64,000 bases of DNA from Geminocystis sp. NIES-3709 (GTDB lineage: Bacteria; Cyanobacteriota; Cyanobacteriia; Cyanobacteriales; Cyanobacteriaceae), in the NCBI RefSeq assembly GCF_001548115.1, contig NZ_AP014821.1, forward strand, positions 3,599,262 through 3,663,261, written 5' to 3'. Position 1 is the first letter of the stretch; every line of letters starts with the position of its first letter. Shown here piece after piece: positions 60,749 to 63,331 of this stretch. Below the pieces are notes generated by a model. That model was given only the letters and a program-made list of their open reading frames with translations. It was not told the origin of the DNA and made no database searches. Position numbers and translations under genes: made by a program.

Positions 60749-61087
60749 TCATTCTTCTTCTTGCACTTGTTGAAAAATTTTAGCCGCAAACTCAGGATTT
60801 TCTCGCATTCGTCGAAATAATAAGGGCATATTCTGATAATGTTGCTTCATTAACTGTTCATCTTCTGAAGGAATCCTCCCCGCCAAAAAAATTAACTCAT
60901 CCTCATCCAATTCTAAATAACGTGCTAACTGTCGAATTAACTCCTCTTTGGGGGCACCTCGATTATTTTCCCACTTAGAAAGATAAGTGTAATCAACCTC
61001 TAGGGCTTGTGCTAACTTTCTTTGACTATAACCTCTTTTTTTCCTTGCCTCTTTAATTAACTTGCCAAAATCAACGGTTTCTTGCAT
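60749..61087 (-). CDS. XRE-family HTH regulator
   Basis: 112 residues from the chosen ATG (MQETVDFGKL), which has a GGGA ribosome-binding site six bases upstream; the ATG at 61117 lies inside a promoter palindrome and has none. HTH: GYSQRKLAQALEVDYTYLSKWENNRG (residues about 18-45), then a helical C-terminus. Divergent from two coiled-coil genes and probably controls them. Confidence 0.82.
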   Translation of the reverse strand: MQETVDFGKLIKEARKKRGYSQRKLAQALEVDYTYLSKWENNRGAPKEELIRQLARYLELDEDELIFLAGRIPSEDEQLMKQHYQNMPLLFRRMRENPEFAAKIFQQVQEEE

Positions 61088-61110
61088 TTTTTCCCGACTT
61101 GAATAAAAAA

Positions 61111-61150
61111 TCAACATTTTGTTGACGAAAAAATCAACCTTAGTTATGAT
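61111..61150 (+). promoter_or_regulatory. Promoter and operator between the XRE gene and coiled-coil genes
   Basis: TTGACG (61122-61127) and TATGAT (61145-61150) with a 17-base spacer face the coiled-coil genes. The palindrome TCAACATTTTGTTGA (61111-61125) overlaps the -35 box; AATCAACC (61132-61139) and TTGAATAAAAAGTCAA nearby look like half sites. Likely XRE operator controlling both directions. Confidence 0.55.
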
Positions 61151-61188
61151 GATAATATCATGTTGAATAAAAAGTCAAGTTTACTATC

Positions 61189-62169
61189 ATGAGTCAAGCA
61201 CAGATACGAGAAACCAAAGAGCAAATAATGACGGCATTCGGAAAGTTATTTGTAGAATATCAACAAAAAGAGTCAAAAATTGAGACGAAAGAAGAAGCTG
61301 TTGAGAAAGAAAAGAATAAGGCTTTATTAGCGAAAGTTGCTGATTATACTGTTAATAATATTGTTAATAGTATGGCAACATTGCAGTTAGATTTTAGCAA
61401 TTTAACCAAAGAAATAGCTAATCGATTAGAGAATGAATCTAATGTTTTAACAGAACTAAAAAAAGCAATTATTGTTGAACAAGAAAAATTAACTCAATTG
61501 CAAAAAGTTCGCTTAGTTGCTGATGCTTTATATATCTTAAGACAAGAACATCAAGAAAGAATTAAAATTCTTGAAAATTCAACTCAAAATACTTTAGATA
61601 ATATTACTCAACAACAAGAAAAATATCATAAAAATTGGGAAAAAGAACAAACAGAATTTGATTTAAAAATTGCTGAAGAATCCGCTTTATTAATTCAACA
61701 AAGAGAACAACAAGAAGCTGATTTTACCTATCAATTACAGATAGAAAGAAAAATCCAAATGGACGAGTATGAAGAAGCGAAAAGACTCCAAGAAAGAGAG
61801 TTAGCTTTAGCCAATCAAGATAAAAATAAATCATGGGAAGAAAGAGAAACTATTTTGGCTAATCAAGAAGAAGAATTTACCCTAAATCAAGAGAAAATAA
61901 CTGGTTTTGAAGAACAGATTAAAACAGAGGTAAATAAAGCTCGTAGTGAAGCTATTAAAGAAGCCGATCGAGAAGCACAAATTAAAGCTAATTTAATTGA
62001 AAAAGAATGGGAATCGACTAAACAAGGTTATGACTTTAAGATACAGTCTTTGGACGCAAAAATTCAACAACAAAATCACCAAATAGAAGAAATTATTACT
62101 CAGTTAAAAGAAGTGACAAATCAAGCTCAAAACTTAGCTTTAAGAGCTTTTCAACCTAATAATAACTAA
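61189..62169 (+). CDS. Coiled-coil protein, 326 aa
   Basis: Almost wholly helical, Glu/Lys/Gln rich, heptad-like, no cysteine or signal peptide. Residues about 50-100 (YTVNNIVNSMATLQLDFSNL; LTELKKAI) align with residues about 75-125 of the next protein; both also share a C-terminal end (QAQNLALRAF versus QVQDLAIKAI). So the pair are paralogs. Resembles cytoskeletal or structural coiled-coil proteins of cyanobacteria, but no family was recognised. Confidence 0.75.
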   Translation: MSQAQIRETKEQIMTAFGKLFVEYQQKESKIETKEEAVEKEKNKALLAKVADYTVNNIVNSMATLQLDFSNLTKEIANRLENESNVLTELKKAIIVEQEKLTQLQKVRLVADALYILRQEHQERIKILENSTQNTLDNITQQQEKYHKNWEKEQTEFDLKIAEESALLIQQREQQEADFTYQLQIERKIQMDEYEEAKRLQERELALANQDKNKSWEERETILANQEEEFTLNQEKITGFEEQIKTEVNKARSEAIKEADREAQIKANLIEKEWESTKQGYDFKIQSLDAKIQQQNHQIEEIITQLKEVTNQAQNLALRAFQPNNN

Positions 62170-62209
62170 GGGTAATTTTCACTAAATATTAATAATTTTG
62201 AGGTAAAAT

Positions 62210-63331
62210 ATGACCAGAGTTAATTCAAAAAGTACCAAAGCAGAAATTTTAGCGGCTTATCAAGAATTAGAGCAAGAAAAAACTAATTTAGAAAAGCAAG
62301 TAAATTTAGCTCAAAAACAAGCTCAAGTTCAACAAAAAGCTCTTGAAAATGCTCAAACTATAGTAGCTAATTCATCAGTACAACCACCAGTAAAAGCACC
62401 GGTAAAACCTCCTGAAAATTCTCCTGTTAAATCTATGAATAATATTGAGCAAATCATCCACAGTTTAGAACAATTACAAATTGGTTTTGGTAGTGCAGTT
62501 AGTCAACTTTCAGAACAATTAATTACAGAGGCTTCTAGCTTAGAAAAATTGGAAGGTGATATTCAAGGAGAAATAAATCAACTTGAAGAATTACACAGTT
62601 TAGACACTATTGAAGAAGATACTTTAGTTAATTTATTAGCTACCTATGAAGAAAGTCAAAAAACTTTTTTTGATGAGTATAATCAAAGACATGAGACTTT
62701 AGGAGAAGAATTAGAAAATTTAAAAAAAGATTGGTTAAAAGAGCAGGAAAATAAACAACGAGAAATTAAACAACGGAATGAAGTTTATGGAAAAAATAAA
62801 CAACGAGAAAATGAAGAATATCAATATAATTTACAACTAACTAGACAACTCGATCGAGAAAATTATGAGCAAGAATTAAATCAATTATACAAAGACTTAG
62901 AAGAAGGGAAAAAACAACAAGAAAAAATCTGGGAAGAAAGAGAAAAAACTATTAGTGAGAAAGAAAAAGAATATGCAGAAGCGAAACAAAAAGTAGCAGA
63001 ATTTGAAACAAAACTTGAAAACGAAATCAAAAAAGCTAAAGAAGAAGGTAAGGGAATTGGTAATTATCAAGCAAAAATAAAAGCAGATTTAAGACAGAAA
63101 GAAATTAATGGAGAAAGTCAAAATTATCAGTTAAGAATACAGGCTTTAGAATCAACTATTCTTAGTAATGAAAATCGGATTAATTCCCTTTCTCAACAAC
63201 TAGATTCTGCCTTAAAACAAGTTCAGGATTTAGCCATAAAAGCCATTGAAGGAACCTCAAATCGTAACTCTTTTGAAGCGATGAAAGAAGTAGCTTTAGA
63301 ACAAGCTAAAAATCAACAAAAAGGGAAATAA
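62210..63331 (+). CDS. Coiled-coil protein, 373 aa, paralog of the preceding one
   Basis: N-terminal coil, then a proline-rich hinge (PPVKAPVKPPENSPVK, residues about 60-76), then a long coil and a charged tail ending NQQKGK. Starts 41 bases after the first coiled-coil gene, same strand. Two paralogs in tandem suggest a heteromeric rod or filament. Function unknown. Confidence 0.75.
   Translation: MTRVNSKSTKAEILAAYQELEQEKTNLEKQVNLAQKQAQVQQKALENAQTIVANSSVQPPVKAPVKPPENSPVKSMNNIEQIIHSLEQLQIGFGSAVSQLSEQLITEASSLEKLEGDIQGEINQLEELHSLDTIEEDTLVNLLATYEESQKTFFDEYNQRHETLGEELENLKKDWLKEQENKQREIKQRNEVYGKNKQRENEEYQYNLQLTRQLDRENYEQELNQLYKDLEEGKKQQEKIWEEREKTISEKEKEYAEAKQKVAEFETKLENEIKKAKEEGKGIGNYQAKIKADLRQKEINGESQNYQLRIQALESTILSNENRINSLSQQLDSALKQVQDLAIKAIEGTSNRNSFEAMKEVALEQAKNQQKGK

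Follow-up and report, generated by a model that had tools for sequence, protein, structure and literature searches.

A predicted DNA-damage-responsive operon for a pair of cyanobacterial coiled-coil proteins, probably pared down to repressor and effectors in Geminocystis sp. NIES-3709

Introduction

The described systems that come closest to the locus discussed here are the repressor and protease switches CapH/CapP of CBASS, ImmR/ImmA and DdrO/IrrE (PprI); the accessible part of the source has PprI and CapP activated by single-stranded DNA (PMC10904395). The present locus resembles them in its XRE repressor with a divergent target operon, in the M78 metalloprotease gene that adjoins the repressor gene in its relatives, and in the palindromic sites of the divergent promoter, of which the window holds three. 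It departs from them in its target, a pair of coiled-coil proteins that is neither CBASS nor an ICE, and in the genome of the window, which is devoid of the protease; cleavage and ssDNA sensing are predicted for the relatives by analogy. The second point of reference is the cyanobacterial LexA regulon, whose box is given as RGTACNNNDGTWCB and AGTACWNWTGTACT in the accessible part of PMC3091678, where no member of the pair could be identified among the genes of the regulon. Promoters of the pair carry this box in other lineages, and part of these genomes have it at the promoter of lexA as well, whereas the promoter of the window does not. The third is the set of coiled-coil-rich proteins ZicK/ZacK, Slr7083 and Syc2039, one case being a strictly interdependent pair (PMC7766704, accessible part); the likeness is one of description, and polymerisation of our two proteins would be a hypothesis.

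In the open literature covered (titles and the starts of abstracts, subscription papers falling mostly outside this scope), the matches listed held no description of the pair, nor of a cyanobacterial XRE-ImmA switch of this kind: the regulation is of a known kind acting on a new target, and the effector family is undescribed within the literature searched. A damage-induced rod with two subunits would be a class of SOS effector not known to us from other systems. The reading that we favour, and consider reasonably probable, is that of a DNA-damage-responsive operon encoding an obligate coiled-coil hetero-pair, of which the genome of the window would keep the repressor and the effectors only.

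The locus and its genes

By the window we mean the whole stretch of 64,000 nucleotides that was analysed, C1:3599262-3663261 of the 4.4-Mb genome of Geminocystis sp. NIES-3709 (genome label G000). A first-pass annotation of its letters had seen a helix-turn-helix regulator facing a tandem pair of long coiled-coil proteins, and these three open reading frames stand (Table 1), with a correction to the start of the regulator. The regulator belongs to the XRE family (HTH_3, PF01381, 6.5e-16 in a Pfam profile search) and has SinR and the Xre regulator of ICEBs1 among its relatives in the PDB. Its translation probably starts at the ATG at 61087 rather than at 61117, because the latter would enclose the operator at 61099-61114 and the shorter start is found in most relatives.

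Table 1. Features of the locus, in positions of the window
Feature	Position	Strand	Remarks
XRE/Cro-CI-type repressor, CapH/ImmR-like	60749..61087	-	112 aa; HTH_3, PADLOC, alignment of 25 relatives
Longer XRE ORF (alternative)	60749-61117	-	ORF list
Operator 1, TTGA-N8-TCAA (putative)	61099..61114	.	XRE side
Operator 2, TTGA-N8-TCAA (putative)	61122..61137	.	overlaps -35 of the pair's promoter
Promoter-like TTGACG-N17-TATGAT	61122..61150	+	-10 = 61145-61150
Operator 3, TTGA-N8-TCAA (putative)	61163..61178	.	downstream of -10
CCA, coiled-coil paralogue A	61189..62169	+	326 aa
CCB, coiled-coil paralogue B	62210..63331	+	373 aa; conserved C-terminal QVQDLA-KAIEG motif

A conserved pair of paralogues

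CCA and CCB are paralogues, as had been proposed at first sight (26% identity over 277 columns, E 5e-24, BLASTP), yet the two aligned segments then reported proved to be a single colinear stretch. In a tree of 98 CCA and 98 CCB proteins, length-filtered and de-duplicated, they fall into separate clades with support 1.0 and a clean A|B split. In the corresponding alignment the rod, measured between fixed anchors, hardly varies in length: 268 residues in 95 CCA and 267 in 3 (with the gap at the last column), 269 in 71 CCB and 268 in 27, with a single internal gap position across all 196 full-length proteins.

Among 291 genomes drawn across the cyanobacterial phylum, full-length CCA and full-length CCB are present, and adjacent, in an identical set of 38, and every genome with one full-length member has both (38/38); the raw numbers of matching genomes, from one search per member, were 46 and 39, short remnants and two weak hits included. 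Related genomes matched CCA at E 0.001 in 38 cases of 60, which leaves 35 once three fragment-only genomes are subtracted (G007 and G010, with internal stops, and G029, with a single short piece). Relatives of CCB are encoded in 287 stretches of named genomes; the named-locus set retains the best 80 of these and is biased by this choice towards the window's kind. All but one of these 80 bear cyanobacterial titles, the exception being a metagenome-assembled genome (MAG) labelled Gracilibacteria, and the named genomes closest to that of the window in this contig scan are the MAG Cyanobacteria bacterium CG_2015-22_32_23 and Geminocystis sp. GBBB08. Four congeners have CCA in an open frame, at 75 to 90% identity. 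As far as its sequences and its distribution tell, the pair is ancient and inseparable. A single plasmid record, a 1.2-Mb Kovacikia replicon, carries a relative at 41%. Two members of the window's family, both devoid of an XRE match, have the pair only as remnants interrupted by stops (L037 and L038).

Neither protein had been recognised in the first-pass annotation, and none of the well-known families claims them: Pfam and NCBIfam gave no family above its cut-off for CCA or CCB, and PADLOC-DB had no match at E 0.1 for these two or for c3-c5, the additional genes of longer operons described below. A profile of phage proteins of unassigned function, PHROG 29668, does match both, colinearly and over almost their full length (1.2e-18 for CCB and 1.3e-6 for CCA of the window, 9e-22 to 1e-8 for seven other members), and the reversed CCB sequence, taken as a control, gave no match.

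The AlphaFold2 model of CCB is mostly helical (mean pLDDT 79, pTM 0.30), with predicted helices at 10-52, 80-129, 138-278, 282-348 and 353-367. Hydropathy periodicity peaks at 3.52 and 3.54 in the first helix and at 3.64 and 3.62 in the rod, any helix peaking at about 3.6. Long helices in such a model do not entail polymerisation. A fold search with CCB returned no PDB or BFVD match at E 0.001, a negative that counts for little with a long helix, and the PDB sequence matches of the CCB profile (best 9.6e-6) were discarded as coiled-coil look-alikes, spike stalks for example. From the sequences we infer that CCA and CCB make an obligate coiled-coil hetero-pair, which may assemble into a rod.

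The alternative that survives best, though we hold it to be unlikely, is that of an intermediate-filament-like cytoskeletal heteropolymer involved in cell shape or division, as ZicK/ZacK, with its damage wiring incidental; a two-subunit rod or filament had already been suggested in the first-pass annotation. Two paralogous helical proteins, always together and with a rod of fixed length, would suit such a role, and heteropolymer-forming coiled-coil proteins are known in Anabaena (PMC7766704, accessible part). The patchy spread of the pair (38 of 291 genomes), the existence of decayed copies and, to a slight extent, the lack of a PDB or BFVD match at E 0.001 speak against it, while a control of LexA type or XRE-ImmA type, to which we now turn, would be odd for a constitutive skeleton.

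Predicted operators of the XRE repressor

When the intergenic stretches divergent from XRE were set side by side, a palindrome could be read, TTGA-N8-TCAA, which occurs at 95 sites across 43 such stretches, at least once in 39 of them and at least twice in 31; shuffling leads one to expect 0.27, and other spacings from 4 to 13 yield 0-3 sites, the count of 95 being descriptive only since the motif was derived from these very sequences. We take it as the predicted operator, to which the XRE repressor would bind; the three sites of the window bracket the promoter of the pair. The idea of a dedicated switch, put forward in the first-pass annotation, is reinforced by these sites, which are common to XRE-divergent promoters and also occur at pairs distant from XRE. 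Nor are the coiled-coil genes strangers to the regulator: among 98 distinct loci, 51 have an XRE-family gene at ~5 kb or less from the pair.

Where no XRE was detected within 4 kb, a site lies upstream of CCA in 14 of 53 loci, often as a doublet; one of the 14, L036, holds a CCA fragment and in fact has an adjoining XRE. Among named genomes of this sort (30 searchable of 31), 8 of the 9 with a site were found to encode XRE elsewhere (185-205 bits), as did 1 of the 21 that lack it (170 bits); Fisher's test gives p 1.3e-5, uncorrected for relatedness. The related-genome set likewise offers four loci (L030, L032, L049 and L059) with a site at the pair and XRE encoded elsewhere. There are counter-cases. 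G052, G045, G034 and G028 have XRE relatives elsewhere (62, 52, 49 and 44% identity) and a pair devoid of the site, L072 has a site and no XRE match, and G020 and G037 (L046, L052) have XRE beside the pair and no exact site. An Argonaute operon adjoins the XRE gene in both G052 and G045; next to the G052 gene the sites have an altered right half, TTGA-N8-ACAA.

At the scale of genomes, the core pattern of the operator is found at 34 sites in 20 genomes, when its backward version gives 11. Of the 34 sites, 12 are at a pair or XRE locus. A looser pattern, scanned in the window's own genome, gave 234 sites versus 167 for the backward pattern and was rejected as too loose; a doublet at C1:1581463 of that genome adjoins no clear gene and was also left aside. 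In G041, every unit of the repeats spaced by 117 bp on C151 and C5 (L209 and L195) contains TTGACGAAAAAATCAA, seen four times and twice respectively, which could be operator decoys or a chance feature of the repeat.

LexA boxes at other promoters of the pair

A LexA box, scored as AGTAC-N4-GTWCT with no more than one of the ten positions mismatched, lies at 21 of the 40 loci that have no operator, versus 1 of the 58 that have one (Fisher 1.7e-9, relatedness not corrected). This makes 22 of the 98 distinct loci, with none among the 51 XRE-adjacent ones and none in the promoter of the window, when shuffling predicts about 1.1 of 35. By eye, 20 of the 21 boxes follow a -10-like TAnnnT at a distance of 3 to 11 bases (L113 is the exception), usually with a TTGACA-like -35 upstream. 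NtcA, whose site is GTA-N8-TAC in the accessible part of PMC3898017, was rejected as the source of these boxes, the GTA-TAC spacing being 6 here.

LexA itself is present in all 21 genomes with such boxes and in 6 of 7 other pair-bearing genomes, and a convincing match is missing in 10 of 26 genomes of the XRE type (G020 and G037 included), one of which, G046, shows a weak match in a 1073-aa frame. Among 30 lexA loci, the gene is preceded by a box with no more than one mismatch in 8 of 16 from LexA-box genomes, 3 of 10 from the XRE type and 1 of 4 others. On the tree of the pair, LexA versus other control requires at least four changes; regulator types follow clades, with about four changes, so that the locus counts are not independent and reflect a few events inherited by clades. 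Two different switches of a predicted DNA-damage type thus converge, by clade, on one pair.

Nineteen of the 98 loci have neither operator nor box. In four of them (L094, L106, L131, L136) sites do occur in a longer intergenic stretch; in L100, L127 and L138, where the contig ends at c3, and in L123, where a 607-aa ORF precedes c3, the promoter is out of reach. L050, L060 and L132 have a different XRE with an M78-like gene (PF06114 confirmed for L050), L046 and L052 are the two loci mentioned above where XRE adjoins the pair and an exact site is missing, and four Moorena loci, L039 and L040 have neither a site nor a nearby XRE.

An operator-like site, single and at a varying distance, lies within 550 bp of recA in 7 of 24 XRE-bearing genomes and in none of 6 LexA-box genomes (0.6 of 30 expected by shuffle). 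With so few, XRE is not clearly a general substitute for LexA, and we did not retain it as a general SOS regulator, leaving these sites as suggestive. They were seen at L198/L238, L204/L243, L220, L233 and L224, in some cases in genomes with no LexA match.

A protease in relatives and its absence here

In PADLOC, the XRE protein of the window matches HTH_VI best (6.3e-14), then capH (1.4e-10). In its relatives a small M78 metalloprotease gene follows XRE, often overlapping it, at 19 loci, some of them devoid of the pair; its best PADLOC match is capP (6.7e-16), and PF06114 was confirmed (3.2e-8) for the protein of L045, a member of the matching protease cluster. A protease gene adjoins XRE in 40 of the 80 named loci (best 80 of 287). 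Many Oscillatoriales display the order protease-XRE and, divergently, c5, c3, c4, CCA, CCB; c3 occurs in 28, c4 in 26 and c5 in 21 of the same best 80 of 287. The model of c3 (233 aa) has a mean AlphaFold2 pLDDT of 36, too low for a fold search. The picture of a self-contained trio drawn in the first-pass annotation does not hold on two counts, since the switch of the relatives has a second part, the ImmA-like protease absent here, and the pair is also found under LexA-type boxes with no such XRE.

The same XRE-ImmA type also stands divergent from an operon for a PIWI-domain Argonaute (L025:4165-8972 and L029:6462-11410), the sites of L025 reading TTGA-N8-ACAA and the partners, from Pfam on the proteins of L029, including a PD-(D/E)XK nuclease and an MMADHC-matching protein. 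The gene c3 is found with no pair in 10 viral loci, L143 to L152 (IMG/VR contigs), near genes for a UvrD-type helicase (L150), a RusA-like resolvase (L145) or a C5 methylase (L143).

An anti-phage or mobile-element module, which we deem still less likely than a cytoskeleton, could account for such associations: XRE-ImmA-type switches guard defence genes, as beside Argonaute in two genomes, the repressor and the protease match capH and capP, PHROG 29668 places both proteins of the pair (and not reversed CCB) in a family with phage proteins, and c3 is carried by the 10 viral contigs, some with replication or recombination genes close by. Against this, PADLOC is silent at E 0.1 on CCA, CCB and c3-c5, other lineages have LexA-type boxes, and neither IMG/VR contigs nor phage records contain a relative of CCA or CCB, for which reason a phage-borne pair was rejected.

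The window's genome has no PF06114 match, so that the route predicted for the relatives is closed to its switch. In its family 4 of 15 genomes have such matches, five in total, and G001 and G003 among these are congeners; the open frames concerned, of 347 to 388 aa, all exceed the small protease in length. No small protease gene adjoins XRE in the six mapped pair-bearing genomes of this family, and the seventh, G011, has none by PF06114. These observations, and the remnants with stops in two others of the family, would suit a locus in decay and silenced by the want of its protease. This is the least likely of the alternatives, as the three genes of the window are intact, the promoter and three operators retained, and CCA is kept in open frames in four congeners.

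A promoter proposed to be under two kinds of control

We can then understand the locus as a damage-responsive operon in the following way. CCA and CCB would be two subunits of one assembly, and in many cyanobacteria their operon would form part of the response to DNA damage. In the lineage of the window XRE would repress it through the TTGA-N8-TCAA sites that bracket the promoter; in relatives an ImmA/IrrE (CapP-like) protease would cut the repressor in the presence of ssDNA, and the operon would be released; in other lineages LexA would hold the equivalent promoter, and its autocleavage on DNA damage would relieve it. The genome of the window presumably retains repression and either releases it by another route or leaves the operon nearly silent. 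What the rod would do is a guess: scaffolding damaged nucleoids or stalled forks, for instance, or delaying division. A more detailed picture, in which a damage-induced rod of two subunits, with relatives in phages, assembles on or close around a damaged nucleoid or stalled replication forks, its promoter having passed a few times between LexA and an ssDNA-sensing XRE-ImmA switch, is one that we put forward very tentatively.

If this damage-responsive operon is what it seems, a conserved and unnamed cyanobacterial pair gains a first testable role, namely induction by, and survival of, DNA damage. It would also provide a natural case of one operon apparently under LexA in some lineages and under an XRE-ImmA-type repressor in others, some of the latter with no LexA detectable by profile search, and with one lineage in which the protease was lost while repressor and operators were kept.

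A further arrangement, of the Nostocales type, was seen at L117, L119, L121, L124, L129, L135 and L140, where the pair is divergent from genes for a response regulator, a histidine kinase and a PhoU-like protein, named by eye from L119.
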